The notes under the pieces are model-generated. The model had not been told where the DNA came from. It worked only from the letters and a program-made list of their open reading frames with translations, and did no database searches. The position numbers and the translations under genes were made by a program. A stretch of 64,000 nucleotides of DNA from Apostichopus japonicus. Taxonomy: Eukaryota; Echinodermata; Holothuroidea; Aspidochirotida; Stichopodidae. Numbering within the stretch: the first letter of the stretch is position 1; the number at the start of each line of letters is the position of its first letter. Positions 588-63,757 of this stretch are shown piece after piece. Location of the stretch: contig NC_092566.1 of assembly GCF_037975245.1 (NCBI RefSeq), positions 1,736,001 through 1,800,000 on the forward strand, given 5' to 3'.

Positions 588-3500
588 TTATAATTCATCT
601 CTAGGAGGTGAGGGGTTGTCATCTTCGTTATGTGCTTCCATCTCAGCCATGTAGAGCGCCCCCACTGATTCACCTCCTAACAGGATATGATTCATCGCCT
701 GACCCATCCTTGAAGCTCTGAGAGGGGAAGGGGGGGATATTAAGAAAATAAAACACGGTTAACATGAAAGATAGACTTGAATGTTTATTCATCACATACA
801 ATAGTATTAACTTAATTATACAGTTAGGTAAAAAACCAGGCCATAATGTCAGATTAGGGGCTCTCAATTAATATTTTTCTACATGGGCCAAAGCAGAACA
901 TTTATCCAGATTAAAAAAAAAAATCAATCTATATCTTGATTGAACAAATGTGCAGGGTAGGATGGATGGCAGCCACACCCCCTGTTCAAGACTCGTCCAA
1001 TTGGAGCACAGTATTGGAGGATAATGCATATGTATACGATGGAAGTAAGTGTGTGTTATAAAATCTCGCGATACCTTGATTGACCAATGTGCAGGGATGC
1101 GATGGATGGTAGCCACACCCCCTGTTCAAGACTTGACCAATTGGAGCACAGTATTAGAGGGTGATGCATATGTATACGAGGGAAGTAATTGTGTGTTATA
1201 AAATCTCATTATACCTTGATTGAACAATGTGCAGGATTAGTCAGTAGGTTGCTGAAGCCTAAGAATTTAAGGGCCCAAACCCAATGAGTACAATATTGTG
1301 GTCTGAAATTTCCCTGACACTGGGTTATTGAATCTTCCATGGGCCATATTTGGTGTGCAGGCCACCTACTGAGAGAACCCTTCTTGACAGGATGACATAT
1401 ATAGGATAACTATGTATTAACTGAATAAAAATGTTACAGCCTGGGGAAGGGGGTCTATGAAAAGGGGTTCCCCTTTCCATTTGAGTGTGTGTATGTTTGT
1501 GGTGGGGGGGGAGGGGTTTGAAAGGTACCTACATGAAAATGGTAGCCCAATCACAATGAAAGATCAGGAAATTTGAAGGTCAGTTACTATTCAAAATTTG
1601 CTTTTCGGTGATCAATTCGGAATAGCTACATGGCAAAATCATTGTGGGGAATGCCCCCCTCCCCCTCCCCCTCCCCCCAAATATTTACAACAATTTTCTG
1701 CAACTACCTTAACACCTGAACAGTTATTATATTTTTAAAGTCCACCCAGACAACCACATAAGATGGAGACAAGAGGACATGTCTTCGGGAAATCCAGAAA
1801 GTATGGTAAGTACTCCTAAATGTATTTACACGGCATTGTAAGTCAACCCATCGGCCCAAAGTAAAGGCAATAGAGAAAAATGGAATTTAGTATGAAATGA
1901 AGAGGCATAAAAACCTCAATGACTTACGATCTCTGAAGAAGGTGAAATTTCTCCTGTAGAAAGAGCTGTATCTTATCCAAGGAAGACGTATTCAAGATGT
2001 TTACATTGTGCAACTTTAGAAAGATCGTTTCCAATATCTGCACAACCTCTGGATCTGAGGTGTTCACATGTAACTCTGGTGGGAATTAAAACAATCAAAG
2101 AATTGGTCAAAATACAGGATAGCAGGAACAATTTCCATGTACAAAACCCTAGGCATAGGACAATTTCTTAATTCATCCTTGGAGTATTAAATGCTGATAG
2201 CTATAATTTTTATCACTGATCAGGAAGATAAACGATACAAAAACAGGTTACTTTTCTGCACTGATGAGCAATTTTCTTTACATCAAGATTTTTGTAGTCT
2301 TGTAAAAAAAAAAGAAAAAAAAGTTAGAACCGGTACCATTTGGTACCAAACCACACATACACAATGCTAAATTGTGGGTGAGGTTACCAAGGAAACAGTC
2401 TTATAAGTAAGATTCAAGGTAACTAACTTTCCAAAGTAAAGTGACTTCAGCAAGTTTGTTAAGTTTGTAACCATGGTGATGACTCGAGTCAGATTCGAGA
2501 GTCAAGTCAACGACTCTGACTGGAGTCAGAAAATATAACTGGTAACAATTTGACCCAATATTTATAATGAAATGACCAATTACAACAAACAGATACCATC
2601 ATTGTCACATGGTTTATTAAATCCTCCATTTCTATATGAAATACGTCAATTAATTATCTAACAAGTCACTCGTCTTAAAGCCTTTAAGTTACTCTAGTTT
2701 CAATTGGGTAGCGTTCAGTCAGACAGAATGCAGCCAGTCTTATATTAAATCTTCTCATGTACTCCCAGATATTGTTTAATACTGTTATCATTAAACTGAC
2801 AATAAAAGTATGCTCCCTATTAAATCCCCATCAAAAATATTTTAACAAAATTGAAAACTTGACAAAGTTACGTCAGCCATCTTGGTTGTTATATGTATCT
2901 ACAATGGATAAAAGATCTCTTTCGTGGAAACTAGCATGATAATTCATAGATATATAGAGACGTACCAGCTAGACTTGCCGTTAGATCGGGGTCTTCGAAT
3001 GTCAAGTTATGCTGCTCCATGAACTCAGCTACCCTTTGATTGATTAATGCTCTGGTGGTATTTACGAAGAGATACATGTAACAAGATGGCGTTGATGAGA
3101 CAGTGTGGACATTGTGAAACTCCCCTGCTGACAACTGAAAGATTAACCAGAATGCAAAAATGAATTGTGGTTTCGATGATGTAACATGAGCAGTTTACTT
3201 CATGAATCTGACGTAATGTATAATGAGGGTGTACATGTTTACAGGGGTTTCACGATTTTACCTCTGATGACCTCCATTTGAACCTTTGACCTCCACCAAA
3301 AACAATAGGTTTCTTTAACTCAATGTGGTACTTCTACACATCAAATATGAAATTGGTCTGACCTTCCCTTCTTGAGATATCCTGTTTACAAGCTGGGCGT
3401 CACAAACGCACTCACACAGATACACATAGGCCATCATGAATGCATACGTTACGATTATCATCGAAACCAAAAAGGAAACATTGGCTTGAGCCAAGGAAAA

Positions 3501-6500
3501 TAAGGAGAGAAGATGGAAATCCAAGAGGTACATGTCACAAGTTGGTGTCGATTAAACATCGTAAAACTACCCTTCTGCCACTGAGAGAATTCAAAGAAAT
3601 TTAGAGTAAATTAAGCAAGTGTCAATGCAGTGAAAACCTTATCCTTGTTTGAACATTTCCGTGTCTGCTGTCTGTTCATAATTTGATTTTCTTGAACAAA
3701 CGTTTCAGATTTCTGTCGCTCAAGAGTCTTTTCAAAATCACTTACAAGATATTTATTTCATCCTTCAATTGAATTCACCCAGGGGGGTGTAGGGGTGGGG
3801 AAGAGGGTTCAATCTGAATTTTGAGCACAATCTTATACGGACACTGGGACATTAAAGATTGAATTGAGAAAAGAAGTTACCTCAATGAAAACTTTCCAAC
3901 ATACTGAATCATCAGTGGATTCCATAACACAAATTCCATGATTCGAATACTTTTCAACAAATGGCCACTTTGTAGTTACAATTTTATTTCCCTTGATGTT
4001 TCCACTTCAGGGAATTTCAACAAAAAAGCTTTTAATGTTGTAATAATAATAATAATACATTTTAAGAACATTAAAAGGGTACTTTTGTGACCAGAAAGGA
4101 GCAGTTTTCAATTTATGAAAAAGTTGCTTTTGACTGTCTCTTTTTAATACAAACTTGAAAAGTAGGAGATATGCCTCCAAATACCTATCAAAAAAGCTGG
4201 CAGACATCTTTGTTAATATTCTGATGGAATGGAGAACTCATAACCATTTTCACTGCATAAGATCTTTGATTTTAAAAACTTTATATAAAAGTTCCTTGAC
4301 ATCACCTACTCACCTTTATGGTATCTCCCATAGCCATGGAAACATTTTTCTTTTGAGCCGGTATTTCTACAAGAATATTCCCGCTGAGAACATGTAGACT
4401 AGTGTTACCAAGATGGGGATCAACAAAGTTTTCCAAAAAAAGTCCTGTTGTGCAAAAAAAGGGGGTAAAAGAAATATCTTTAAGCAACAGAATAGTTATA
4501 TTAAAACTGAAATAGAATTGAACTTTTGCCTCCTCAATAGCTGTCAGTTAATCTCAAGTTTATAAACTTCACCCAATAAAAACAGATAAAGAAAACTGAC
4601 CTTGTTTGCAAACTGTTATTTTCATTTGGGGGGATTTTATCTCAGAATGACTCACAACTATCATATAATGATGGAGAAATGGATGAAATCTATAAGCGAT
4701 AGTACTATTTCAAAATTCATATTTTCAAAATACATGTGTTCACAAACACAAACAGACAAAAGCATGCACATACTTGCCTACTTTACTTCAAAGGTTTTAT
4801 ACTTGCCAGTTTTAAAAAGTTGAAAACCTACTTCACAAATTTTCAAAGTGCATATATTGACTGTCCTAGGCAGATAACAACCCAGTGTTTTTCACATAAC
4901 TTTAATAGAAGCTAGTAACATGGTAATTTACAACACTTGAGCAGAACACACAGTTAATATTTTGTTTATAGTAACAGCAAAACAGATGTTCAAGTTCTTG
5001 AAACATCTTTGATACTTTACTAAAACAAAGTTTCAGCACTATGCCTCGGTCTACACTTTGTAACATGGATTGCAGCCTAGCCAAGTTGCATATAGGGATC
5101 AGGGCTGTCTGTATTATGGTCACATCAATTACCAGAACATTCATGTGATGAAGTGAAAGAGGAAATATAAATCTAACTTAGTGCCGCCAGCTGTCTAAGA
5201 GAGTAACAATTATAAGGATTACAACTACTGGTGTATTTATCATCTCAAGAGGAAGTTAATATTCACAACAAAAAATATTTCCCTTGGCAGGAATTGTAGA
5301 GGAAAGTTGTTGACAATCTGAATTCATCTGAGATTTTTCTTTACATCTTGATTTAGATTAAGATCTTTGAATAATGCTTCAATAGAAATCCTTCTTACCA
5401 GGAAAATCTGCCACGAATGTGACGTCAATATGGCTGTCTAACTGTTCCTCTATTTCTGCTAGTTTCGTCCTCCAGTCTGATAAATCAGTCAATAGAGGCA
5501 TAAGCCAAGGAGTGGGTTTAAAGGGAGACCACTCCGCAGTTATCATTTCTGTATCGGGATTCCATATCCTAGAAACGTCAAAAGACGTAAAATATCACAA
5601 TTAATTGTTCATAACCAAAAAACTATAAACTGAGAGGTTCATTAACAGTTAGGCCTGGTGACGCTACTAATAAAGCACTCAAAACCAGTAAAATTAATCA
5701 GACTTGCTTTTTCTTTTCTCTTTGCCTTGATCCAGTTAGCTTGTTAACAGTTAATGTATCTCACTAAAGCAATGAACAACTTTAAATCTACCTTGCAGTC
5801 AGCCAAGACAACATGTCTGATCTATGATCCTGATTTTTAAGATGCTTATCACCAATCATACTTGGAGGGAAAGAATATTCAGAGAGAGAATTGTCACATT
5901 CTTCTTTTTCTACATCTTTCAAGGAAGTTTGATAGGATATATGGCAGAGGTATTACATCACACAAAGAAGGCTTAAATAAGTAACATGGAAGTACTTGGA
6001 ATAAAGCAATATTATATTGATTGTTTGAAGTTAGAAAGTAAAACTGAAACCACAATATATTCCTTTGACGAATACTTAAAAAGAAAGATATGACGGTATC
6101 CGTGAAAAGCACAGACCTTTGTTGGAATCTACCGTTCATCGATAGCCAGATATCTAAATAGAGTGTAGGCTCTTCAACTCCAAGTTGGTGAAGCTTGTTG
6201 GCCACACAGGTCGTGTACTGTTTGACCATATCTGCATGTGTCTTCCATCTGTTAGTCTCTGTCCAATACTGACCGAACAAATCAATAAATAGAGATTATA
6301 ACACCGTAAAAAAAACACTGTAAAATGAGTACAAATCATATAAGATTGGTAATAAAAGTATACAGAAAGACCCAGTCAGGACAATTCTACAAAAATTTAG
6401 TACTCTCTGCAGTCCCAATCCAAACCAGATGTATCGATGGTACAAAATATTATGAATAACATTTTTGATAAAGGTTTGAAACTATTCGTACTGGCAGCAG

Positions 6501-12500: not shown

Positions 12501-15500
12501 AAACTTCTTTAAAATGCCTAATATATATATTTTTTTTGCTAAACTAAAGTAATGTGCTGTAAAGTGTATAATTTATGTACAAATTCATCTTGTCATGAAG
12601 GGTACAGATACAATTTGCTGGCAGTAAGCTGGCACTCTAAGACTGCCTTTTTCATCACTTGAGATTTATAGATCTATCCCAGTAAAAGTTTTACCGAATT
12701 ATAATTGCATTGTACGAAAGTGCCATCTCAGACAAAGAATAACAAGCTTTTACTGACCCCGTTATAATCCATGTTGATGATACACCCCATGCCAATCTTT
12801 TCCCGTTTTCTTGGGGTCAATGGATGAAACGAACTTAGGCTCTTAGGTTGAGAACTTAGGCTCTTAGACACCTTTACTTAAGAATTGCTTATAGCAACCA
12901 GAGAAATATCGACTTCTTTTTCTGAGCTTTATTATTTCATAGTCTACTTACCTGCAATCTTAAAATTGCGTAATGCCAGACAGGTACATGAACGTTGCAA
13001 ATATTTTTATTCCAGATTGCGTCCACCGACCTGTTAAGAGAAATAAAGTACGATTTATAAGTTTAAAAATCGTCTCGAGAAGAAAAAGTAGCTGGACCTT
13101 GCATAATGTGTAAATAAAACTCTGAATTGAAATGAAGTTATTGGCATCAAGGGATTTGGCAGCCCTGTCATTCAATAGATACCTCCATCAGGCCTACTTG
13201 GGGAGCGATTAAATTCAGTATTTTAAAATCTTGACCAAACAATGCTTCAATTACAGCAGGCAGCAGTGATCCAATCAGCTGCAATGGGGCCTTCAAACAG
13301 GCCATGCATTTGGCACCTCAGAAGTGCATCAGTTTCGGGCCGGTGCTCAGTCAGCCAATTAGCCATGCTTGTAATTGATTAGAAGACTACTGGTGTGCAT
13401 CGTTAACATTTTACATGTGAGACCAACAATTGTGTGATGTTTTGTGCTCTCAGAAGAGCAATTAACTTAAAGGGTGTGAAGACTTGCACAAAAAGAAACG
13501 TCTAATGCCGTAATCTGACCTAGTTTCGAATGAGGTGTAAAAGAAGTGTTAGACATCACCATCGATCCCAGAAAATACACACACAGCTGCTACCTTCGGT
13601 AATTAAACACTAGTGTACAGTCAATACATACAGCTACGGTCAATACCCACAGCACAGTATACAAACGATACAGCGATGTACATCTCAGGTCCAGCTTAAT
13701 ATAACAAGGTATCACGTTTCATTACTGTCTGCATTTTGTAGCGACAAGAGAAAAACTTCACTTGCAAGCAACGGAAAGTTAACTTTTTCAGAGCGCGGCA
13801 CACGGTTTGGTGCGAGTCTTCAGTTCCTTTAATTGAAATACTTAAGCTTATTTTCCTGACAGTCTTGCACGTGTTGTATAAGGTCTACATTCTCAATTTA
13901 AGTCAAAAGGCACAAAATACAGTACTTACAAAAATCAAGGTTGTTATAACAAACTGATCTACTAACTTGATGTACTGTGACATAGTCTTACTGGATTTAA
14001 GGATTTTATCCATCATGCATTCAACCTTCTTTAACCTTTGACCTTCAGCATCTTACAGTAACATTTATGCACAAGGGTTGTTTATTTAATACATACATGT
14101 AACAACACATAACAAGGTTATTCATTAATGGCTAGACATTGTAAAATATTATAATAGGGTTGTCCTCGGGTAGTTAATAATTAATTGGTCTTCAGTACAG
14201 CAAGAAAAAGATCTCCAATTCTCCATATGGCAATAAAAATTTAGCACATTTGGGACATTAATTGATACATCATATCATTTCCTAATAACCAGGTGGCAAG
14301 AATCTCACACTATCTTTTCATTAATACTTTATAAATCAACATTTATCACCAACCGATGACACTTGTCACCATTCTGTTAAACATTCACTTGACATACAAG
14401 ACTTCATTTCCAAAACATGACACGTCCGACTGTCTGAAACAAAGGAGATGCTGTGCCAAGTTTATATTGATTCTGATATTCATAACCAGCAAGCCAGAAT
14501 GCTTTGTGATTCCTTGCCTTATAAGTTTATTCACCTGATTCATAGGGCAACTGAGAAAAATGGATCCTTAAGTCCTATTGTTCTTACAATGTTTTCAGAC
14601 TTTTACCTCTGTTGAACTCAAATGACCTTTGACCTCCACAGGAAAAACAATATGGTTCTTAATTCTACTCAATAAGGTGCATCCATGTACAACATATGGC
14701 ATTTATCCAACTTCCACTTTGTGAGTGAATGTGTTTACTAGGTTTTCAGACTTTGACACATGTTGACCTCAAATGACCTTCCACCGCCACAGAAAGCAAT
14801 GAGTCTACTCAATATGTTGTATCCACATGCCAAATATGAAGTTCATCCACATTATGGATTGTGAGTTACCATGGTAACAATATTTCAGACAGAAAACAAT
14901 GGTGTTCTTCTACTCAGTAAGGTTCATCTATGTACCAAATATGAAGTTCACCCACCATATAGATTTTGAGTTAATATTATGGTTGTAAACCAAGGCATCA
15001 CACATACACACAAGGACATACACACATAAGTACACACACCATCACGATCGTAAAGATTCCTTTTGCCTCTGATCATAGAAATACAGAGAGTTTCTCATAT
15101 ATACAAGTTCTAGTAGTGTTGGGTCATCAATTCTATCGTATGGATAGCTAAACAATGAAAAAAAGAACAGAGGGTCCAGACTGCATTTTGATAAATTATT
15201 TTGACATTTTGGGGGGAAATTAAACCACAAACAAATTTAACCCAGGAACAGTTCACACACAAGAAAGAACAAGCCAGTTACTATAAACAGATGAAAAATC
15301 TTTTAAACAACTTCAAAAAGTCACAACTTGGCAGCAGCTTTGCCTTTCGCATCTCTCTACACAACTAAATCAAACTAATTCCCGAAGTGCAAATTCACTG
15401 AACGTGTGAGCACAATAGTGTAAAGATGAAGGCCTTCCTTCACTGTTTTGGCATTTAAATCTTAGTCATGAATACTCACATCCAACATGTACCAAAGATT

Positions 15501-26100: not shown

Positions 26101-29100
26101 ACTATGCCCTAATACCTCCCCAAAGATTTGATTGGTGTCTCCACTAGCATTTCCCTCCTATGAGAGTAAACCCAAGCCTCCATCTACCTACCATGTTGCT
26201 ATGATAATAATTTATTGGTTACCTTGGACTCCACTGTTATGTGTGTGCATCATTTTTGCATGCACATTTTAGTCTGTAATGCACATTTTAGTCTGTAATG
26301 CACATTTTAGTCTGTAATGTACATTTTAGTCTGTAATGCACATTTTAGTCTGTAATGTACATTCTAGTCTGTAATGCACATTCTATTCTGTAATGTACAT
26401 TCTATTCTGTACTGTCATGCACATTCTAGTCTGTAGTGCACATTCTAGTCTGTAATGCACATTCTAATCCGTAATGCACATTCTAGTCTGTAATGCACAT
26501 TCTAGTCTGTAATGTTCATTCTAGTCTGTAATGCACATTCTAGTCTGTAATGCACATTCTAGTCTGTAATGCACATTCTAATCCGTAATGCACATTCTAG
26601 TCTGTAATGCACATTCTAGTCTGTAATGTACATTCTAGTCTGTAATGCACATTCTAGTCTGTAATGCACATTCTAGTCTGTAAGGCACATTCTAGTCTGT
26701 AAGGCACATTCTAGTCCATTAATGCACATTCTAGTCTGTACTGTAATGCACATTCTAGTCTGTAATGTACATTCTAGTCTGTAATGCACATTCTAGTCTG
26801 TAATGCACATTCTAGTCTATAATGCACATTCTAGTCTGTAAGGCACATTCTAGTCCATAATGCACATTCTAGTCTGTAATGCACATTCTAGTCTGTAATG
26901 CACATTCTAGAATCTGCATACATTTTAGTCTGTATGCAGATTCTAGTCTGTACTGTACATTCTAGTCTGTAATGCACATGTTAGTCTGTACTGTAATACA
27001 TTTAGTCTGTAATGTACATTTTATTCCGTAAGGCACATTCTAGTCTGTTATGCACATTCTAGTCTGTAATGCACATTCTAGTCTGTAATGCACATTCTAG
27101 TCTGTAATGCACATTTATTTTGTCATGTACATTCTAGTCTGTAATTGATGCACATTCTAGTCTGGTATGCACATTTTGTCTGTAATGCCCACTCTAGTCT
27201 GTAACGCACATTATAGTCTGTAATGCACATTCTAGTCTGTAATGCACATTCTAGTCTGTAATGCACATTTTTGTCTGTACTGTACATTCTAGTCTGTAAT
27301 GCACATTATAGTCTGTAATGCACATTCTAGTCTGTAATGCACATTTTTGTCTGTACTGTACATTCTAGTCTGTAATGCACATTATAGTCTGTAATGCACA
27401 TTCTAGTCTGTATGCACATGCTTGTCTGTATTGCACATTCTAATCTGTAATGCACATGCTAGTCCATACTGTAATACATTTAGTCAGTAATGCATATTTA
27501 GTCTGTAAGGCACATTTAAGTCTGTAATGCACATTTATTTTGTCATGTACATTCTAGTCTGCAATTGATGCACATTCTAGTGTGGTATGCACATTTTGTC
27601 TGTAATGCACACTCTAGTCTGTAACGCACATTATAGTCTGTAATGCACATTCTAGTCTGTATGCACATGCTAGTCCATGCTGTAATACATTTAGTCAGTA
27701 ATGCACCTTCTAGTCTGTAAGGCACATTTTAGTCTGCAATGCACATTCCATTCGGCAATGCACATACATCTGCCTTCACATTAAAACTACACAGTAAGAT
27801 GAAGAGTATAATAAATGTCTAGATTCAGGACCATATTAAACAAATGGATTATTCACTTGGCAATGTTGAATATATCCTTTTTATCTTTTTAGTGTAACAT
27901 CACCTGCCCCTGGAATACCTTTTCTCTAAAACGACATCGAAGAGAAAGATGAAGTTTGATTTATTCGTTCACCTACCTGTAGAACCGTGGCACTGTTTGG
28001 GCAAGTAGAATCCTTTGTCGTCACACTGAGGGCGCTTTGCGCCAATTAGCCCCTGTTCTTCATACTTCATAAGGTCACTTTCACATGGCCCTGTGCCTCC
28101 TGCTTCCACTTGGCAAAGCTCTGTAAAGATTGATAAACGAGAAGAACATCTTTGTCAGAGCATTTAACTTACCATGATTGTCATCTAGATCATCAAGAGG
28201 AGAGTTAAATTACTTCTTTTTTTGTAAATAACACATTTCACCTAAAAAATGAAAAGGAATTTATCACAAACTGTTAGTAACTACTCCTCAAGAAAACTTG
28301 CCACCACATCATTCTGATGACAAAGCCAGGTCAGGGTGGTCACAATCTCAAGGAATCGCGACATTTATTTCATCCGACATAACGTATTAACTTTAGACAG
28401 ATAAGCAACGGGACCTTTACAGGCACTGCGAGATACGACAAAGATGACTCCGGTGGCCTACGATAGCCCAAGATGTCTGTAGAAGCTTTCAAATATCAAA
28501 CTTTCAGACGACAAGTTTCCTAGCATCGGAAAATTTAAAATGTTATATGTTAGGATCCACTACAGAATGTCATCAGAATTGTCAGTTTTCATTTATCCTG
28601 TTATCTCCTTCCCTAGATGGGGAAAGGGATTGGAGAAAGCTCAGAGAGCAACAAAGTATAGCAAATCACCCATGACACATGAAGTCTCTACACTTAATGC
28701 ACCCAAAATACTTGAAAATTCCTATCCAAATATTAAACCCTAGGTTTTTCCCCTGTAACATTATCAAAGACTCTGCTGTGCTGTGAACAGAATTCTTGCT
28801 CAATACATGAATTATACCGAAACGTTCATGTAACTGATAAATTATGTAAAATACCGCCCATAAAACTGACATACGAAAAGGTTTTTAGCTTTCAATAACA
28901 TCGGATTTTGGAATTAAAGACACCCTTGGTTTCCGAAAATTTTGTTTACATTTTTGTAACATAAATTTATATTTCATTTTTTGTTTCCTGAAATAAAAAC
29001 AACAAACCTGTCTTCTCTTTGCATTGCCCTTTGTAAGCCTCTGTGATCCAGGGTTGGTTGCGCGAACAAGTAATGAACCCCAACATGCAGGAGGTGGCGT

Positions 29101-32100
29101 AGGTGACGTTGTCTGTGCCACATACGGGGTCATACTCTCTGGTGCAAGCAATCTCGCACAGGTTCTCTCTCACCTCTGTCAAAAGAATGAACACAGAGAG
29201 ATGTAACCGTACCATACATCCGCCAACTTACATGTGACTTAGATATATCCTTTCAAAATGTCGTCAGTGATTAGGTCTGTGATTGATTTTATCCTACTGG
29301 TAACTGCTTCGGTATATATCTAGATACACTGTTACTACTCCATGTACAAAGGTACAATAAGTAACACTGGTCAGCCACTCTACAGATAGAAGCAGAATCC
29401 GTCCACTCAGTGGGTTCAACTACGTTAAAGTAAACTAGATAAAGGGACCATAGGGTGTTCTGTAAAAAATTACTTCAACATAATTTTATGTTTTCAACGT
29501 GGTACTGTACGTGCAAACCCACTGTTCACACATAAATCAACGTTGGTATGATTATAATACATACAAAGAAAATGACTGCCACTGGGCACAGAAATGAGAC
29601 AAAAAAGAATTTATATACTGGTCTAGATAAACACATTTTAAATGTAATTTTTCCTAAGCTGGGCGATGAGGACGAGTAAGTAATCATACTTATTTGCATA
29701 TGGTTAAGCCCTTCTAAGGTCAGGGAGCAGATATGCAGGCGCGTAGCCACAGGGGGGCGAAGGGGGCAGCCGCCCCCCCCTTGAGCATATTTTTAAATTT
29801 TTTTTTTTAATGTTTTTATGATATCGCTAGTATTTTCAAAAGAGAAAATGCTAACATACAACTTACAGGGCCTGGGAAGTGCCATTTCCAGCGATCTGGG
29901 AGGCATTTTCAGCCAAAATTTTCTTGTACGCTTCCCGCCAACCATGGTGGCCTTACGCTTAGATAGTTTGCAATGTCAAATCTACAGTTTCGCCCCTCCC
30001 TTGGCAAATTCCTGGCTACACGCCTGCAGATATGTAGTACATTTCCTGGTTGAACAGTAGTGACTAAATATTGTTGTAAATAAAACTGCTGTGATGACAC
30101 AAATGGGGTTAGGTTTGCCTTTTGTTTTCTACCCAAGCACCGTGCATAATTTGAAGTGCTGTGATTAATCATGATAGGATTTGAATATTTAGCACTGAAA
30201 ATGAACAAGTAATGAAAGCCAATCTTTCCATTTTCAACCACATTTTCTTTCAAATTATAGGTTATTTTGGACAGAACTCTGTCACATCAAATGTCCTATC
30301 AAATATCCAAATGAAAACACATCTCATGTTTGATGTCTAACAGAATGAAAATTTGGTACATAATTCCTTGAGATTTTGCAATGTCCTTCCCTCCTTTCAT
30401 TGAAGGATTATACGACACTAAAGGGGTAGTAAAGGTACGTATATGAATGGTTCAAAATGTTCAATTCTACCCTAATGGCTATTACAAAACCTCCTTTATA
30501 AAGTAACAACCAAATTAACAAATGTCACATTTCATTAGAAATGAAAAGCAAAATATTGACATAAATGCTGAAAACACACAATATATATCTAGTACTTTGA
30601 ACATTTCAAGTAGTGACTTCCTATCAGGTTTATGCAAGCCCCCCCCCCAAAAAAACCCCCCACCTTGATATAGTTTCTCATCATCATAAGAAATCAAAGT
30701 CAATGACATGCAAATTTACAAAAAAGGTGGTTCGATATCAAACTCTGTTTTTCAAGAAAATTGCTCTTTTCATAATATTTAGAGATATTATAGAAACCAA
30801 AGAAGGCATAGAGGAAAGAACTTAGAAGCAATAATTTAAATATGATTATATTTTTAACACCAAAAATTAATGCCAAATACGTGGCACCATCAATTCACAA
30901 AAAAATATATTTACATTTTTAACCTATTTTTCAAAACTAAAAAATGGTTGTGACAAAGTTCTCTATTTCTTAACTCAATCTTTTGCACGATCAAAGAATC
31001 ATTGTTATAAAGTGACAATTGATGATAACTGTAGCCGTCACTGAATTAATTGTTCATGTAAATATGCAATCCCCATTTTAAAAGCCAAATTCGACTTTTC
31101 AACAGTGATTGCTTCACTTTAAAAGCCTGCTGAACTTATGCATTTCAAAAGTTCAAGGAAAGAGAAGGATTTAAAAAGGTTCTTTGTGACAGGTTCAAGG
31201 TACATGTTTTGAACTTAAACAAGAGCACTTTTTTTTCTTCTTTTGTCACTGCTACAGTACTTTGTGGCTAAGTTTTTCCATATATACTGTCACTCAGTAC
31301 AAAGATCAAACTAAATGATTTCACAAAAACTGCCAAAAAATATCACTCATAGCCATGTGGCTTTTAAAATGTTTTAGAAGCATTCGAAAGCTACCTGTAA
31401 CTGTACTTCTGTGTTAATTTTGGTAAACATTGGGTACTACTACAGTACTTAGTCAACGCTAAAAGGATGACTTTAGGCATATTAACTTGGATACATTTTC
31501 TCGACCGTTCAAAACCACATCTACTGTATAAGTCTAGGTTGTATTTCTATATAAATAACACTTTAAATTTCGAATCACAAGAATCTCTATATAGGCCTCA
31601 CAGATCAACGATGATGTATGAAGTTAGTGTCACCTTAGGATGCCAATGACGATACAAAATAAGGTTATATTTATCTGCTATGAAGGCTGTACTTTCACAA
31701 TAAGGTTAAGGTTTGATATTCTTAAAGTATTTAAAAGCTGCTTTTCGATTTGATTTGACATAGTTTTTCTTGGAAGCTCTTCCATTATGAAATCCCATCA
31801 AATATAATTCATTAGCTTGGCTAGGGAAGTTTCATCATGTCAAATAATGGCTTCGCTTCCATATGACTATTAAAGTTACTGGATGCGAAAAGTCTAGGTG
31901 ACAAAACGTTCATAATCGAATCAAATTCATTCATCACTTGCTCACTAACCTTCACTTAGAGTTAGCGTACTAGGGGTGGGTGGGGTGGGGTGGGTTGGGG
32001 GGGAAGAAGTGTCATAGTTTCATCAACTACAATCATATTTGAATAAGACTTGGTAGGGTCTGGTAACCCAAAGTGGTTGACCAAGCCCTCCTTATATCTT

Positions 32101-34237
32101 CACAAATGATACAATATATTGACTTTCTTGTGATACTCAAGGTCATCAAATTGCCATCGAGTTATGAAAGAAATTCAAGAAAATTATTAGCTTGTAGTTT
32201 TCCTTTACTTACCCTGTCAGATTATTTAAATAGTGACCTTTGCCAACATCCGGGAAAACCATTTAATATTTGAATGATTAGGGCACTGTACAACCTTGGC
32301 TCAAAGTATTACGCATGCTTGGGGATTTTGACGAGCTAAAATGTGGGGGCAGCATTATTGATGACGATTAGACATCCTGTGTACTACATTCAAATGCACG
32401 AAAGCCCTTACAGAAGTCACTGGATAATGACAAACACTGTATTCTAAACACCTTCAAAATGCTTGCTGTTTGAAATGTCACAAGTCACTCAAAATACTTG
32501 AATGGATACATGTGCAACAACTACTGTGAGAAGTGCCTGACACTGATATCTACGAGAAATGTGAGAAAAACATCGATAATTTGGTTCTTGTTTAATTTCA
32601 CTGTGTCATCCCCTAATTAGAGACAGATTTCTGGGAATTTAATAGAGAATTGAATATTGTGGAAACACTTTCAACATCAAGAAAAAAACACAGGTTCAGA
32701 ACTCCTTATTAAATTTTATCAACAGATGTTCACACTCCTGAGCCATTACAATATTTCTAAATGCGTTCAGTATTTAAAACGCAGTTGCCATGTAGTCTGT
32801 TGTGTAATCTATTGTATGTATGTCCTATGACTGTACGTCCTTGAAGAAAAAAATCACCATCATCAGCATTAGAATAAAAAGCACAGCAGTGACTTATTAA
32901 AGTCACAGTAATCGTCTTGAATAAAAAATTGTAATAACGTTTCAAAATACACATTTCCCAAATGAAAATTAGAAATATTTTAAGCAGTTTCTGCTTGCAT
33001 TGTTAATCTGTGAGTTGTCACACGAAAGGTCATAACAAGGGCGTAACCCTTTTTAAATTTTGCTTTGATGAAAGAAATTTGGGTGGGGAATGCAATCAAA
33101 ATTTTAATTATTGAAACTAATTGGTTTGGATTGTAAAGCTAAAAGGTTTTGCGTTTCTACTTATGCAGAGTTATGATTGGAGTACTGTACTGTTTTGTTG
33201 GTGAGGTTTTCAACTTCAAGTTTGTATGTTATTGTTATGTCATCATTTGGGTCAAAAGGTGAATTTGAGGAGAGAGAAACTCGCAAAGACAAAGAGTACA
33301 GATTGATGTGCAAACTAGACTACTGTACAATAATACAGTGCAGTGTGAATATCTTTCTTTTTTTTAAATCAGTGGTTTTTAGAAAGAAAAGAAAATATTG
33401 TTGGTAAGAAACATACAATGTGAGAGAAGCTACTTTCTTTAATATCTGGATAAACTTACACACAACCTTATCTCTGGAAAGTTTCCAAATTTTATTGGGA
33501 CACTGAGATGAGGAATAAAAGTAGTCACTATATCGCATGCAGTACTGTGCAGTATACAGCCCAGTTATATAAACTGTACATGAGTCTAGCACAGGGTTGT
33601 CCAACCTTTTGCAGAGGAGGGCCACATGGAATGATTATGATGAAGGAGGGGGCCGCATGAACCCTACGCTCGATTTTCGATTTTTTGCCCAAAGCCCAAG
33701 GCAACAAAATGTGAGCACTGCGCGCGGAGCGCACTGATTTATTTTCCTTCCTGATAAAACAGATGAAAATAGTTCAGCGGCCCCCCCCCCCTCGACTGAG
33801 AAAGTGTCACACAAACTGACCTGTATGCAGTTTTTTTGGACCCAGAAGGTTCGAATGACTGATTATATAAATCAATAAATCTGCTCACTAAAATTTCGCA
33901 CAGTAGAGCATCTCTGGCGGGCCTGACGCAACCCTGCGGCGGGCCGGACTGTGGCCCGCGGGCCGTAGGTTGGACAACCCTGGTCTAGCAGATACAAACG
34001 ACTGTATATTTTCCTGCATGGCTGGCTGCATCAGATGGACTAACAAGAAGTTAAGTTAATGGCTGTTTTATTACCAATCACTCTCTTAGTTAAAGTTTTG
34101 TATCTCACTCAAGATCCAGTCATTCTCTGAATGCAGCATAGTTGTGTAACATTTTTTCCCTGTTATTCTTATATATGTGTGTATATATATTGATATATAT
34201 ATATATATTGATATATATATATATATTTATATGTATG

Positions 34238-34270
<33 letters not shown>

Positions 34271-37200
34271 ATATGTATATATTTAAATAATGAATAAAGA
34301 ACTCACCTTCCGTGGGCTGCAAGCACTCTGTACTTCCACAGTCAGTTAGGCAACACTTGAGTGTACCACTGCAGTCACTGTCTGCCTTGCAAGGCTTGGT
34401 ACATTTGGTTCCGATAGAAAAGTCGATCAGCTGAGGGCATCTGCCATTTTTGTTTCCTGAGATTTCAAGTGAAGAAAAGAGCAGGGAATGGCTTATCCTG
34501 TATTCAGAGACACCAAGTTTGGTACTCACAGGACCAAAAAGCAGCAATTTTAAAACATAATATTGTTATTTTCATGAATGATGTCGTATTAAATGTTTCC
34601 ACTATGTATGCTCTTTAACTTACATTATTTTCATTTAAGCCTCAATGATTCAGTTGCATGGTCAACTTCACATAATGTGAGTCTTACACTTGATCCTAAT
34701 CATCTTTGCAACATAAATGTTTGAACATTTTACTTATTATACCCTTTAAACGGAAATCTGACAGTAATGAGAACAGAAATGTGTTTCGTTTTTTTTTTTT
34801 GTGATTACTAGTTACTTAAAGGAGTAACAAAGGCAGGAGGATCAAAGACATTTATATTATTTAGTGGAATTTCGGGCGCATTACGTAATCAATGGCGGCT
34901 TACTCTGTACTGTGGTAAGGCCTTAGAAGCCAATTTTCAAAGCGAGCGTATTTAGTCAAACAGGAAGCGGTTAACTTAAAATTTGATTATTAGAGAGTTT
35001 TTAGGTTACTGAAGAAAATGAAATTGATCCCTGCCTTCATTATTTCCATTAAAGTTAGACATAATGTAGTTTTTCTGTGACAGTAAAAGGGGAATGAAAC
35101 CTTGTACAAAGGCAGATCCTTCCTAAATATTGAATATTAGAGAGTTTTTAGATTACTGAAGAAAATGAAATTGTCTCTGATCCCTGTCTTCATTATTTCC
35201 ATTAAAGTAAGACATAACAAAATATTCATCTGCAAAATAAGGCAATATTGCAAAAATGGATTACGGATACATAAATAGATACACTAATAAGTAATAAATA
35301 TATCAACTTTTGGGGTTGCCCCAGAAGAGACTTCCTTCACAGAAGATTCCAAGCATAATCTCACAAGATTTGTCCTTAATTAATACACTTAGGATACTCT
35401 ACTTACTCTTTTCAGCACCATGAACACCAACCTATGATGAAAACAAAAGAAAACAACTTTGATTCTTGAGCAAAAAAGAAACTTTCTACTACATTAAGAA
35501 TTATTTTGCCTGGCAAAACTTCTAGATATTCTACTTTTTCCTCCATTAAAAAAAAAAGAAATATTCAAAGTCAAATAGTTATTAACATCATCTGACAACA
35601 GTATTGGCAATTCCAGCTTCTGATCATTATTTGTACAACTGCAATAAAATGAACAGTGACTTTTCGGCAGTCCATTGAAAATATTTGGTTTGAAGAAATC
35701 TGCACAGTATACAGTATACCTGACTGAAAATAAAAGCAAAAGGTTTAAACACAAAACATTCAATGTCCTATGAAGGCTATACTGTGACTGTATCTGATGG
35801 CACTTCCATCTGAGCAACAACCAAACCAGAGAGCAATCCTGACAAGATTGTTAGGGAAATACCACCCAGTATTTCCCGACCGGGAAATATCATCAGACAA
35901 GATGGAAATATTAGGGAATATTAAACAACTGAATACTTTTCAATTTTTCAACTTGTTCTTTCATGCAAAAGTGTCATATAAACAGCAATTTCAAAGCAAA
36001 ATACCCAGAAAATGACCCCAAAAAAAGGGTACTCTAAAACTTGTGATTGGTGCCAACTGCTCCTTCAAGTTTTCTGTTTCATTGAGATTGTGCATTTTAA
36101 GTTTTTGATGCAATGATCAATCGAGTCCTCATTTTGAGCCACAAACAAAAGAATGAATGGGCAGTTCTGGATGTAGACGGTGTCTATGCACTGTAGTTGG
36201 CTGTTCAATCGGGTGTCACAGGGGAGTTGAACAGATTTTGCATTCACCAATGTTTCCCGGTATTTACCATTATTTCCTGGCCGGGCTATATTAATATTTC
36301 CCAGGAAATAACCAACTCCCAAATTCTCATCACAAAACATCCTTTATGAACAATAGATGATGGGCTACCATAATTTTATTCAGCTTTCAGAGAGAGAGAG
36401 ACACACAATGTCCACACAATCACACATACAAGCCACGGGACAGACTGCATTGTACCCGAGTAACCAGACTCCCACATATATATAGTTATCCTCGGTCACC
36501 CGACTCAGGAATGTTATCATACATGCAAGCCTTTCTATAGCAACTGAACTCTATATGCCTAGTTTTCCAAACCTTTCAAAAAATGTTATTAAATCCCACA
36601 CTTTTTCAAGACCAAAACATTTTTAGCAATATATACCATTGATAAAGCTTATGCACACACTTCATTATGTTAGGCTATCTTTGGAAGGTGGTAGGCCTAA
36701 CAATTATAACCCTTGCCAAAGGTATGCTAACCACTAACATTAAATAGCTACAAGGTTAGGACAGAAAATTATAGTGACAGAGACATAATGTTCATTCTGT
36801 GGAAAAGGAAACCTTTTTTCTATGTGGTCATGGAAATAGGAAGTGGGTTCAAATGACCATTTTTTCTCACTTTCCAGACTGAACTTTGTAAATAAAGCTC
36901 TTTCAAGACCCAACAAAAGAGTTTCCATGTTGCCCTACATTTTCCAGACTTTGTGGGAACCCTGTCTACAGAACTTCATGATAGGTTCCAACCAATGACA
37001 TATCCCATCTCTGCAAGTATAGTTTAATCAACTATAATGAGCATTTACGTACAATTCCAAGACTAAAAGAGAATGGGCCAACTTTTTTGAAAATCACACA
37101 TGGTCGAAAGCATTTCAAGTGATTTTGTTGATAGTTCAATAAGGAAATTTGAAAGTACACATCAATGTCATTTAGGCCTATGTGTAACCTGGTCAAACTT

Positions 37201-38039: not shown

Positions 38040-39799
38040 GGCCTATATTGTTATTGTTATGGTTTCGGTTTATCAGCCGAGATTTAGGCTACGTCATTTC
38101 CGTTTACGTTATAATTGGTGAGTGACTGCCAATGATACGGCGAAAAGGTCACAAGAATATTTCCTAAAATAAGCTGGAGTATTTATTTCGCTCATTCTAT
38201 CTGACCTCTTGTTCTATCTGCCTCAGTTTACTTTTATTTTCCTACCAGACTGAAAGATCTGAGAAATGTTGATCATTTGATTTGATCTCTTCACATCTGG
38301 CAACAATTCCGGAGTATGTAATTTTGGCATGCTTAAATGACATCGTAAGACTGTCTGATATAGGTGGGGAAGTTGTGTGTAAGTTTGTGCCTTTGGGTAT
38401 TTAAGAAAGGGGAGGGAAGGGAAGAACGTAGCAAGTAGTACCCGTGCTTTCCTATCATAACAATATTTTGTCTTTGGTTTACATTAGGGATATTGACCTC
38501 GAGCAATGAAACTGATTAAGGGATTCTGTATGAATTAGGGAAGGGGCAGGGGGAGTTGTGGAAGGTATAAGAACTAATTACAGTCAAAAATTGTAATTTC
38601 AACCTTAGCCTCATTGTTGATGAATCATTAAATGAGTCGGCAGAAAATACTATCATTTTGCAAATCAGGTGAAAGTGTGGTTCACGTGCATTTCCTTTGT
38701 GGACGGATTTGAAAGTATATAGTTGTCCCGTCGGGTTCGAGGAACATTGAATATTTTTTTTTCTTGTTCTTTTAATAGTTTTCACGTTCCGTGACGTATA
38801 AACAATAATTTGCCATGTAAACGACCTTAGTTTCGGAATTGCAGATCGGTTGCGCTTTACTGTGAACGACAAATATCCACTGGTTTTTAGTTATGGAAAT
38901 ATGAGCGCTGGTTTAATCAGTAAGGAGACATAATAACAATTCTTCGCACCATTTTTTGGAAATCAGCTTCCAGGGGAATCGAGTGCCAGGCTGGTCTGGG
39001 CCATTGGGGCAATTATGTAAACGAGCACCCCCTTTTTTAACTCTTCATTTGCCCAAAGTATCCTACATATTATGATGGAAATGAGAATAGCTGGTCTGCA
39101 TTACTTATCTAATATTTCTCAGAGCCTCCAAATGACTCCGAAACCCGGGGTTATAGCCCGAGTGGGGGGGGGGGTTACATAGGTAATGAACACACTGGAC
39201 CTGAATATTGCAACCACCGATGTATGATCTGGGCAAGTATAGATTTACAGAGGAGACCAAAGTAGTGAATAGCTACTAAACAGTTTCGTTACATGTTAGG
39301 CAGAACATTGGATCCAATTAGATCTTCAGAATTATGCAAAGGTATAATCTATATATTTAGAAACATACGTCAACTCAGAAAAAGTATACTCCGGTACAAT
39401 GTACGCCTGATTTAGTGGAAATGTGTTCTTATTTCAAGCATTTCAACTAAAGGCAGAAAGAAGACCACCCGGTGCAGGCTAACTGAGAAACTAAGAAGAC
39501 AGGTTTTCTGTAAAGTGAGGGCAGCATACACAAAGTCTGCTGTACTTGAAGATGAACACATGAGCTAATAATAGATACATTTATTTGGATTCTTAGCATT
39601 TCGTCGCACAGACACTTTTTCATGTTTTGCTACAAGAAGGCAAAATTGGAAACTTACACAAGTTTCGATAGTTTTTATTTCAACAATTGAAATGAAATTT
39701 AAGAATAGTAACAATAGTGAACTACATTGCTATCGGATTTTAGCATGATGAAAGCATCGACAAAAGTATTCAATGCCAACCCACAAGAGTTTTTTTTTT
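38040..39799. other. Intergenic region between two divergent loci
   Basis: This separates the minus-strand secreted inhibitor gene from the plus-strand MINPP1-like remnant. I searched for the missing RHGxRxP exon of the phosphatase on the plus strand and did not find it. The region holds a G-homopolymer (39164-39173) and no convincing open frame. Confidence 0.5.
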
Positions 39800-39925
39800 T
39801 GCTTAAAGGCATTGAAGACTCGCCCCAAACCGCGTTCCGCGCTCTGAAAAAGTTAACTTTCCGTTGCTTGCAAGTGAAGTTTTCTGCTTGTCGCTACAAA
39901 ATGCAGACAGTAATGAAACGTGACG
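39800..39925 (+). repeat. Dispersed repeat, copy 2 (39.8 kb)
   Basis: The plus-strand copy of the repeat also found at 13684-13852 and 63602-63757 starts AAAGGCATTGAAGACTCGCC and ends ...GCAGACAGTAATGAAACGTG. It directly abuts the MINPP1-like coding remnant and shares an open frame with it (39727-40137), so the start of that frame is repeat-derived, not phosphatase. Confidence 0.85.
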
Positions 39926-39944
39926 GACAAACAGCCCTTACGAA

Positions 39945-42099
39945 ATCTTCTTTCCAAAGTACGGATAACGACCGTTCACGAGGTAGCGCCGAGGGATGCA
40001 TATCTGTCTTAGCCGGGAACAATAGTTGTATCTTTGAGATGCGAGAAGATGGCGCGACGAAATTAGGAGCAACTTGTCAGACCGGGATGGTTTCTACGGA
40101 CATCACGTGGTCTCCATTAGAAGGTGACCGCCTCCTATAGGGACGCACGACAATTGCCCCTATTATAATGAATTCAAGGACTGGTGGAGCTCGACGACGA
40201 ATACATGGCTTTTCGAAATGGACCCGAAGTAGAACAGGTGATACGCAATATCGAAAAACGGTTGACGGGTGATGAGAAATTTACAGCTACCATAGGTGAG
40301 CTATTGCGTCACGAGGTCTCACCGTTTACAACGCCCCTCCCAGCCCTACCCCACCCACCCCGTCCAAACCCACTCGCCCCCTCCGAGGAAAGGGACAAAT
40401 TTCTCGAGAAAAATCTTGTTTGAAGCGAACGTAATATTGTTTGATTTTCTCCACCCCACCACTTCCGCAACTCCAAATCTCGAACTTTGTTATTGTGGAA
40501 AAAAATATGAGTATTATTCAATGTGGGTTAGGATTTTTCCCTTTTTTATATTGTTTTCTTTTTCAAAATCTGTTCGATGTTTCCTTTGATATATTTTATC
40601 GAAGATAATAAACTTCTGTATCAGATAACAATATGAATTAATTAATACTTATACTTAATTATACTCTACTACAACATGTGCAAGAAGTCAACGTTCTGGA
40701 AAGAATATGCGGTATGGAAAGTGCCCTCTTTAGTGAATCCAATTGGTGTAATCTTTTCTCACAATCGGATCTTCGATTGAACGAGTATCTGGAAGAACTT
40801 GTCGAGTATTGGTACGCGTCACATGGGTACTCAATTAACTACCAACCTTCATGTGTCCTCCTAAAGAATATATCGAGTTATCAACAGACAGCAGTAGAAC
40901 AAAAGAGGTATGTTTCCATGTTTGAATATAAATTATAATGCAACACGTCACCGTTGAAAACTTTATATACTTTTGTTTTTTTTTCCCCTCAAAATAGTAT
41001 TAGTATTATTATATCGTATTAGTATTATTCATCATAAAGGCTTAACAGTATCATCAACATAATTACAAAATCATTATTTCTTGAATATTTTTCATACCTT
41101 TAGTCCTTTTTGGCCAGCTCCATAACCATATTATATTCCTATAGAAATGCATCTCGCAAAGTTATGAAGTATGAAAGTATAAATGTGAAGAAAACAAAGC
41201 AAGTTCGTCAATGTGCGTCGATGACATCACTGATGTTTGTTTCAAGTTCACTGCAGAATGCATGTTAATTGACTTCAGATGTTGTTATCTCGGCTGCAGG
41301 TATAGCGGCTGCAGGAAATGATTATAAATATTCTTTTTTATTATCTCATCCACTTTTAGATCATTCTAATATCTTCTTCTGGCATTCAAAGAGGCCTAAA
41401 ATTTATCAATAAAACTTGACACTGATATCATATCTGAAGCTATGTCACTTATTCACTTGGTTACACAATCATGTACCAGTAGCCCAGTGGAGTGACCAGT
41501 AGAGATCATTGCCCAACATTTAGTTTGAAATACCTCCCCTCCCCTCCCCTGCCAAATGCTCTCTTGAGCTCAAATGTCCGTTACATTGCCCAGTAGCACC
41601 AAACATACACATCTTCCATGTATTTTGTCTTTGTTCGCTATTGTTTTTTTTTTCTCTCTTATACATGCAGTAAAACAAAGAAAGGGATGTACAAGTTCGC
41701 CCACTCCGACACTGTTCAGGGGCTACTCTCTTTGATGGACCTTTATCGTCCCGAAGTGGCACCACTCGCAAATAACTACCCAATTGATGTCGTCTGGGAC
41801 TACAATGCCGCCATTATTACATGTCCCTTTGCTAGTAACATTGGTTTTACCCTATTCCAATGCCCCGTGACGTCACGGGTGATGAAAGTTACTATAAAGT
41901 ACTTGTTACTCATATAGCGAACAACCCATCAGAGTATAGGAACTTGTCAGACCTATTTCTGCCAGTATTCAAAGATGACGTCATTGACTTACAAACCGGC
42001 GCTTGTAACTTTGAAGAAATATGTAGCAATGCGTTAGCTTTAAAATCAAGTGGGGTATTCTTGGCCATATTCTACCTTTTACGTCATTTTGCTAACTAA
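39945..42099 (+). pseudogene. Multiple inositol polyphosphate phosphatase-like pseudogene
   Basis: The remnant resembles MINPP1, a histidine acid phosphatase that removes phosphates from inositol polyphosphates. Pieces: 39945-40137 (SRGSAEGCISVLAG..DRLL), 40146-40178 (HDNCPYYNEFK), 40181-40295 (LVELDDEYMAFRNGPEVEQV), 40685-40907 (WCNLF..EYLEELVEYW..HGYSINYQPSC..AVEQK) and 41671-42099 (FAHSDTVQGLLSLMDLY..PFASNIGFTLFQC, then GDESYYKVLV..CNFEEICSN). Human MINPP1 has matching blocks in the same order, including the catalytic HAE/HSD motif. Two introns (40296-40684 and 40908-41670) keep GT..AG borders, so the copy is not processed. The frame breaks at about 40138 (TAG plus shift), 40179 and 41866, each consistent with one missing base. 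No exon with the catalytic RHGxRxP motif is present; the 5' side is a dispersed repeat. Sequencing error is the alternative, but the three other genes here are free of frame breaks. Confidence 0.72.
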
Positions 42100-42451: not shown

Positions 42452-42716
42452 CAGGCGCGTAGCCAGGAATTTGCCAAGGGAGGGGCGAAACTAGATTCGG
42501 CATTGCAAACTATTTAAGCGTAGCGCCACCATAAGTTGGCGCGAAACGTACAAGAAAATTTTGGCTGAAAATGCCTCCCAGATCGCTGGAAATGGCACTT
42601 TCCAGGCCTTGTAAGTTGTATCTTAGCTTTTTCTCTTTTGAAAATACTAGCGATATCATAAAAACATTCAAACAAATTTTTAAAAATATGCTCAAGGGGG
42701 AGGGGGGGGCGGCTGT
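42452..42716. mobile_element. Truncated MITE of the CAGGCGCGTAGCC family
   Basis: It begins CAGGCGCGTAGCCAGGAATTT and follows the reverse complement of the complete element at 29736-30026 closely, then stops at GGCGGCTG without the second terminal repeat. No 8-bp duplication can be defined. Confidence 0.85.
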
Positions 42717-43753: not shown

Positions 43754-52297
<8,544 letters not shown>

Positions 52298-56490: not shown

Positions 56491-56734
56491 GGGAAGGGGG
56501 CGACCGCCCCCTCCCCCCGAGCAAATTTTCTTTAAGACATCGCTAGTAATTTCAAAATAGACAATGCTTAGATGCAACTTACAAGGCCTGGGAAGTGTCA
56601 TTTCCAGCGACCTGGGAGGCATTTTCGGCCAAAATTTTTCTTGTACAATTCGCGCCAACTCATGGTGGCGCTTCGCTTAGATAGTTTGCCTACAGGCTTC
56701 GCCCCTCCCTTGGCAATTACTCGCTACACGCCTG
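56491..56734. mobile_element. Truncated MITE of the CAGGCGCGTAGCC family
   Basis: It matches the body and right end (CTCGCTACACGCCTG) of the complete element at 29736-30026, including GACATCGCTAGTA, CCTGGGAAGTG and CATTTTCGGCC. The left terminal repeat is missing. Confidence 0.85.
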
Positions 56735-58737: not shown

Positions 58738-58898
58738 ATCTGGTTGGTCATTTTCAAGCCCGAGAAGTGCCATTTCCGGTGATCTGGGGGGTATCAAAAC
58801 CAGAAATTTTCTTGTACGCTCCGCGCCAACCGATGGTGGCGCTCCGCTTAGATGGTAATTCGCGCCCCCCGGGTTAGAAAATCCTAGATACGCGCCTG
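58738..58898. mobile_element. Partial MITE related to the CAGGCGCGTAGCC family
   Basis: This fragment shares AAGCCCGAGAAGTGCCATTTCC, the CAGAAATTTTCTTGTACGC block and GATGGTGGCGCTCCGCTTAGATGG with the other copies, and ends in TACGCGCCTG. The left part and its terminal repeat are absent. Confidence 0.75.
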
Positions 58899-61740: not shown

Positions 61741-62516
61741 CCTTTACCTCTTGTTAATTAAGAATTAAGCACGGATCCCGCTAAAACCAGTATTCGACAC
61801 TCTTTTGATGGTTGAACCATCGGTCAGTTTGACGTAAGTAATAAGACCAACTTGGAGAATAGACATTTTTTTCACGCAGTGAACAATCTCAACGTAACGT
61901 TAGTAATGACAAGATTTTAGACATTAGTTTAGCCGGAAGTCTAAAGTAATCTAAAGTGAAGGCAAAAGGACCTGTAGAATATACATCATCAAAACTTACT
62001 AGACTGGCAGACAGTCGTTTATGTTAAGCCTCTAGAATCATACATTCGAAATGGTGATAGGCTGAAGCAATACTGTACATAATTAATAGGCCTGTAGTGT
62101 TATACCAACTCCTGGGTCAGTCAAAGTTAGGACTACGCTTTAACAGTGAAAAGTTTCATTATTACTCATCTTTTACCATGAAATTGTACAACATACTGTG
62201 GACAACAGCAACAGTTGTATCATATGGCCTGATACAGGCCTTTAAAGTGCCTTTCGTTTTGAGAACATTATATACTACTTACATTTTTTGCATCATGTAA
62301 AGTAATGCTTTCTCTAGCTACTTTTAAATGTCACCACTACATGCATGCTCACATGTATAGAATAAAAAGTAAAATAGATCTAATATTACCTAACAAATTC
62401 AAGACCCTTCAGGCCTTCATGCAGATTCTGGGCTGCCTATGAACGTGCTTGTCAGGAATAGTAACAACAAATTTGGTGGGTGGTCACCTTTTATAGAGGT
62501 ACGTATGTCTTATGTA

Positions 62517-62706
62517 CTTTTTTTTAAGGAAAAGTCGCCCAGGAAAGAACCTGGGCACGAAACCAAACTACCAAACGACTGATCCGCTCTCAGCCCCAGT
62601 CCCCTTGCATCGGGACTGTGACTTTGTGATCATCGTCGGGTGTGCATCACCATTCCCTCGAAAGGGAACAGATACTACACATGATCTTAGCCAAAAGGCC
62701 GAGAAT
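62517..62706 (-). mobile_element. U2 snRNA-headed retroposon (SINE-like)
   Basis: Read on the minus strand, it starts TTCTCGGCCTTTTGGCTAAG and continues ATCATGTGTAGTATCTGTTC, the first 40 or so nucleotides of U2 snRNA including the branch-site pairing region. It then diverges completely into about 135 nt with three perfect hairpins (TTCCCT-TTCG-AGGGAA; CAGTCCC..GGGACTG; GCCCAGG..CCTGGGC) and ends in an A8 run. A 14-bp direct repeat, GTATGTCTTATGTA on the plus strand, flanks it (62503-62516 and 62707-62720), as expected after LINE-type retroposition. No Sm site is visible. Confidence 0.85.
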
Positions 62707-62720
62707 GTATGTCTTATGTA

Positions 62721-63601: not shown

Positions 63602-63757
63602 ACAGGTCCAGCTAAAGATAACAAGGTATCTTGTTCCATTACTGTCTGCATTTTGTAGCGACAAGCAGAAAACTTCACTTGCAAGCAACGGAAAGTTAAC
63701 TTTTTCAGAGTGTGGCACGCGGTTTGGGGCAAGTCTTCAATGCCTTTAAGCCACGTT
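63602..63757 (-). repeat. Dispersed repeat, copy 3 (63.6 kb)
   Basis: This is the third copy of the repeat at 13684-13852 and 39800-39925, on the minus strand. It starts with AAAGGCATTGAAGACTTGCCCC and ends with AGCTGGACCTG. The sequence from 63758 to the window end shows nothing I can assign. Confidence 0.85.

Follow-up and report, generated by a model that had tools for sequence, protein, structure and literature searches.

A composite retroposon with a U2 snRNA head lies on the minus strand of positions 62503-62720 of the window, by which we mean the whole 64-kb stretch of DNA that was analysed. The insert itself is 190 nt long and sits between perfect 14-bp direct repeats; it consists of the 5' part of U2, a G+C-rich and strongly folded body and a short A tail. 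We tentatively read it as a non-autonomous retroposon that belongs to a SINE-like family headed by an snRNA, and we consider this reading somewhat likelier than any single rival. A composite retroposon with a U2 head at these coordinates, between perfect 14-bp target duplications and ending in an A8 tail, had been proposed in the first-pass annotation. The coordinates proved correct, with all features being read on the minus strand, and the U2 match, the order of head, body and A tail, and the duplications all support the composite structure. In 5' to 3' order of the insert, the features are as follows.

62707-62720, minus strand: target-site duplication, 5' copy, reading TACATAAGACATAC on the minus strand and identical to 62503-62516 at 14 of 14 bases
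62706, minus strand: single A preceding the U2 match, either in the place of U2 C5 or an added base
62666-62705, minus strand: head, U2 snRNA nt 6-45, with stem-loop I and the branch-site recognition segment GUAGUA (from Rfam RF00004 and position count)
62526-62665, minus strand: body, 140 nt, G+C-rich and strongly folded (from fold and G+C; chance-level Rfam rows only)
62518-62525, minus strand: A8 tail (from sequence inspection)
62517, minus strand: extra G separating the A8 tail from the 3' repeat (from sequence inspection)
62503-62516, minus strand: target-site duplication, 3' copy, reading TACATAAGACATAC and identical to the 5' copy

Target-primed reverse transcription leaves flanking duplications and an order of head, body and A tail. 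Both the target-site duplications and the 3' tail of a SINEU-type element are present here, with agreement over all 14 bp and eight A residues. The TACATAAGACATAC repeats end abruptly on both sides. In the window as a whole, 14-mers recurring 150-300 nt apart were listed at 21 places (neighbours merged), and self-comparison attributes 20 of these to longer duplicated stretches, leaving the TACATAAGACATAC pair as the only isolated one.

Rfam assigns the head to U2 with 50.3 bits (gathering score 46, E 4.9e-07), and nothing else in the 64 kb matches a family at its gathering score. Rows below the gathering score elsewhere in the window (U7, snoR138 and three miRNA families) were set aside. Over U2 nt 6-45 the head is identical to U2 at 39 of 40 positions, so that the U1- or U2-derived head of a SINEU-type element is found as well. 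The U2 reference letters agree with the Rfam consensus across the head. The earlier description of an exact U2 5' sequence therefore needs qualification: it stands for 39 of these 40 bases, but U2 nt 1-5 are absent and nt 30, an A in U2, reads T in the insert (window position 62681).

This sole mismatch falls on a modified base of U2. In human U2, A30 carries both 2'-O- and N6-methylation (m6Am), a modification whose conservation is reported to extend from S. pombe to humans (PMC7960923), and for fly U2 the motif is given as 29AAAG32, with m6A as the product of the enzyme (PMC7324582). If mature U2 RNA was the template, the T could possibly reflect a misreading at the modified base. Vertebrate U2 is listed with fourteen pseudouridines, ten 2'-O-methyls and one m6Am (PMC7960923), and because U2 is so heavily modified, a chance coincidence with some modified base would not be improbable. 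A later mutation accounts equally well for the T.

The perfect repeats had been taken to suggest recent activity. They are indeed perfect, but the identity of 14 out of 14 bases rules out, at one-sided 95%, only a divergence of more than about 19%, and one mismatch among 40 head bases only a divergence of more than about 11%. Judged from these letters, the insertion does not have to be a very recent event.

The body differs from its surroundings in composition. Its G+C content is 54.3%, against 37.2% for the window, a value attained by just 30 of 3176 windows of body length outside the insert. The 186 nt from 62520 to 62705 are predicted to fold at -75.4 kcal/mol, against a shuffle mean of -55.6 (sd 4.0, z -4.93), and none of 200 dinucleotide shuffles was as stable; body and tail together reach a z of -3.25 (200 mononucleotide shuffles). 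The strongly hairpinned body of the first-pass annotation is thereby borne out. G+C content and the z of -4.93 fit a compact element derived from an RNA better than an arbitrary piece of transcript. None of 666 adjoining windows of 190 nt outside the insert, counting both strands, is equally stable, by a small margin: 33631-33820 on the minus strand comes near the insert's value at -73.8 kcal/mol, and four more 190-nt windows lie between -68 and -69 kcal/mol; the neighbour of 33631-33820, at 33821 on the plus strand, folds at -68.4.

In the predicted fold U2 stem-loop I forms, and 11 head bases (U2 nt 31-35 and 40-45) are paired with body bases 11-24. Folding head and body jointly gains -10.7 kcal/mol. 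With shuffled bodies the gain averages -4.5, as it does with shuffled heads, and it was equalled by 2 of 300 shuffled bodies and 6 of 300 shuffled heads. Since this test was picked only after the fold had been viewed, and since the complement of the head aligns locally with the body no better than expected by chance (372 of 500 shuffles score as well), the joint folding may be taken as a hint only. By the same alignment, an inverted copy of the head was rejected as the source of the body, the unusual fold gain notwithstanding.

Other sources for the body fared no better. Rfam at E values up to 10 returned just two rows for it, sR28 (E 0.69) and Va-907 (E 4.3), which we took as chance together with CRISPR-DR57 (E 2.3). 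An origin from tRNA, 5S, 7SL, rRNA or snoRNA was rejected, with no Rfam match near the gathering score, and the window contains no tRNA. Nor is the body likely to come from the 3' part of U2 or from reversed U2, whose alignments were equalled by 486 and 414 of 500 shuffles, respectively; between the last part of U2 and the first 50 nt of the body, 129 of 500 shuffles aligned as well. An open coding piece was discarded because the insert has stops in each sense frame (3, 1 and 3), and the 80-codon open frame that spans the insert on the plus strand has no Pfam match. Membership in SINE2/tRNA, SINE3/5S or SINE1/7SL was likewise rejected: the head is not of those families and the corresponding Pol III promoter was not found. 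The 3' end of the insert was also compared with the window in search of a likeness to a candidate partner LINE; the best match, 19.7 bits, lies within the range of 40 shuffled queries (maximum 26.8), and a partner could lie elsewhere. As far as these searches go, a body that the first-pass annotation did not recognise is still not recognised.

Within the window the insert has one copy. Small-word blastn found nothing above 22.6 bits for the head and 24.0 bits for the body, where 40 shuffles of each reach 25.4 and 29.7 bits. A profile search with nhmmer gave no further copy in the window; as a control, it recovered the insert itself at E 4.6e-41, with nothing in the masked window. Five exact-pattern scans of viral contigs gave 0 matches, which is no evidence against a family since these contigs are not animal nuclear DNA; two of the five used patterns that canonical U2 also matches, so that the 0 matches are uninformative on copy number. 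Two similar scans of prokaryote genome contigs, again with 0 matches, say little about animal DNA.

Most SINEs open with part of a Pol III gene and thereby bring a promoter along. In the insert, our promoter check placed the sense-strand Pol III boxes at chance level. Under two consensuses each, the best A box was matched by 958 and 930 of 1000 mononucleotide shuffles and the best B box by 517 and 326 of 1000. On the antisense strand there is one A-box-like match at 7 of 8 positions, a figure with no shuffle comparison behind it. TTTT occurs at insert nt 11, within the U2 stem-loop, and at nt 174, the first of which would hinder Pol III. U2 itself is transcribed by Pol II from an external promoter, so copies of a U2-headed element that land elsewhere would need a promoter nearby. 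This need is a problem for the SINE reading, one common to any snRNA-headed SINE.

A plausible course of events would start from an RNA in which the 5' domain of U2 (nt 6-45) was joined to the 140-nt folded body and the A tail. Template switching or RNA ligation may have supplied the U2 piece at the 5' end, and the body would be integral to the element, serving its structure and recognition by a LINE. Because the insert shows no internal promoter, its transcription probably depended on one outside it. The RNA would then have been reverse-transcribed at a nicked site by LINE machinery and left between the 14-bp target duplications. At the empty site, ggttaTACATAAGACATACgtacc, there is no TT/AAAA nick of the LINE-1 kind, which makes a LINE of another type more likely.

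The first-pass annotation had also raised the idea that the RNA might interfere with or imitate U2 base pairing. A splicing or U2-mimic role is not supported. The insert does retain GUAGUA and stem-loop I. However, the first three bases of GUAGUA are predicted to be paired with the body (unpaired probabilities 0.00, 0.01 and 0.12), leaving the last three more accessible (0.92, 0.50 and 0.46), and the Sm motifs RAU3-6R and AU3-7G have no match in the insert. Together with the chance-level Pol III boxes, the TTTT in the head and a location between target duplications, like that of a retrocopy, this makes it highly improbable that the insert is a functional RNA gene which mimics U2, or blocks it, at branch sites.

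Our leaning towards one copy of a SINE-like family stems from a compact body that is rich in G+C, folds well and stands apart from its surroundings, and from a head that folds with it. Against this reading stand the one known copy, the chance-level Pol III boxes, the TTTT at nt 11 and a fold that is not unique in the window. A one-off chimera is next in line and should be taken seriously, without quite reaching the standing of the SINE-like reading. Here a reverse transcriptase at work on the end of a LINE, a SINE or another RNA would have switched to U2 snRNA, or the two RNAs would have been ligated beforehand, giving a single insertion without descendants, in keeping with the single copy in the 64-kb window. 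Chimeras of LINE-1 with U1-U6 snRNAs are documented in mammals; like the insert, they have the snRNA piece 5' of the retroposed part and target duplications, and the common U6 chimeras are sense-oriented and often lie between such duplications (PMC13174262). The U6 pieces are full-length there, in contrast to a U2 piece that ends at nt 45, whereas U3 pieces are recurrently truncated, so that a truncated head would be no obstacle (PMC13174262). The mismatch at the m6Am base (PMC7960923) could, moreover, have arisen when mature U2 RNA was miscopied. However, an enzyme that switches to intact U2 would presumably begin at its 3' end, and a stop at nt 45 requires either a U2 fragment or an internal jump. 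A LINE-1 chimera would also be expected to lie at a TT/AAAA-type nick and to have a 3' part of LINE sequence: ggttaTACATAAGACATACgtacc is without the nick, and the body has no Rfam or Pfam identity and is not recognised as LINE, so that no partner LINE is shown.

Read-through of a disrupted U2 gene would bring in the U2 piece by another route. An element inserted near nt 45 would be transcribed from the U2 promoter as a U2-5'/element RNA and retroposed elsewhere, which would account for transcription without an internal promoter. The LINEs Utopia and Keno insert at one site of U2 genes, to which the insert junction at nt 45 is close, and the 5' boundaries of Utopia are reported to differ between families (PMC4640811). 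The junctions share a region (nt 38-45) and are near but not identical, with the insert at 45 and not 38; in Phytophthora Utopia the downstream U2 starts at nt 39 (PMC4640811). Target duplications of Utopia are given as 20 bp for reptile elements and as absent from arthropod ones (PMC4640811), and neither would be expected to yield 45. Furthermore, Utopia and Keno are described as autonomous LINEs mainly inside U2 genes (PMC4640811), whereas the insert is 190 nt long, lies outside any U2 gene and carries its own U2 head. We regard a disrupted U2 gene as an improbable source. Tailless U2 retropseudogenes of therians resemble the insert as retroposed U2 5' parts with a truncated 3' side, but they lack an A tail and a foreign body (PMC5322556), both of which the insert has.

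Kojima reportedly introduced SINEU in 2015 for SINEs with heads derived from U1 or U2 snRNA in crocodilians. SINEU elements in crocodilians form multi-copy families. They share the U2-derived 5' head and retroposition with the insert. The insert differs in having one copy in 64 kb and in its host, an animal whose vitamin K-dependent gamma-carboxylase exon is identical to the solved enzyme at 28 of 51 residues. This exon and those of a cyclophilin mark the host as an animal, and it is probably an invertebrate or at least no vertebrate. SINEU and SINE28 are jointly mentioned with avian, crocodilian and mammalian genomes (PMC8010984), SINE_U appears just as an entry among element labels in a Daphnia paper, and no U2-headed SINE of an invertebrate is among the literature matches listed. 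It is tempting to go one step further than the SINE-like reading and to suggest an independently evolved multi-copy family of U2-headed SINEs far from crocodilians, whose U2 segment and body fold as one RNA and whose A30-to-T change is the inherited footprint of a reverse-transcribed mature, modified U2 RNA; taken as a whole, this is unlikely. If the insert does belong to a family, snRNA heads would have been captured more than once in animals, and the question would become how U2-headed copies are transcribed, given the external Pol II promoter of U2. A single chimera, in contrast, would represent an ordinary though neat case of template switching or RNA ligation.

The window contains several other features. 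Two interspersed repeat families were noticed, one at 29773-30026, 42452-42704, 56524-56734 and 58752-58853 (77-91% alike, in both orientations) and a second at 13686-13832, 39801-39923 and 63603-63751 (90-96% alike). A 19-bp minisatellite of about 78 copies, with the consensus ATGCACATTCTAGTCTGTA, occupies 26260-27765. Exon-like stretches of the gamma-carboxylase lie at 4302-6295 on the minus strand, identified through Pfam for 5894-6295 and through PDB for 5894-6295 and 4302-4547; 2931-3194 on the same strand is perhaps a further stretch of it. Open frames at 39721-42099 (plus strand) may belong to a multiple inositol polyphosphate phosphatase. Two open frames of the minus strand, separated by 5 kb, hold a Kazal domain and a WAP domain (28967-29227 and 34227-34565), possibly as parts of one secreted inhibitor gene. 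Finally, two exon-like cyclophilin stretches were found at 49714-52297 on the plus strand, with 51 of 67 residues identical to cyclophilin A.
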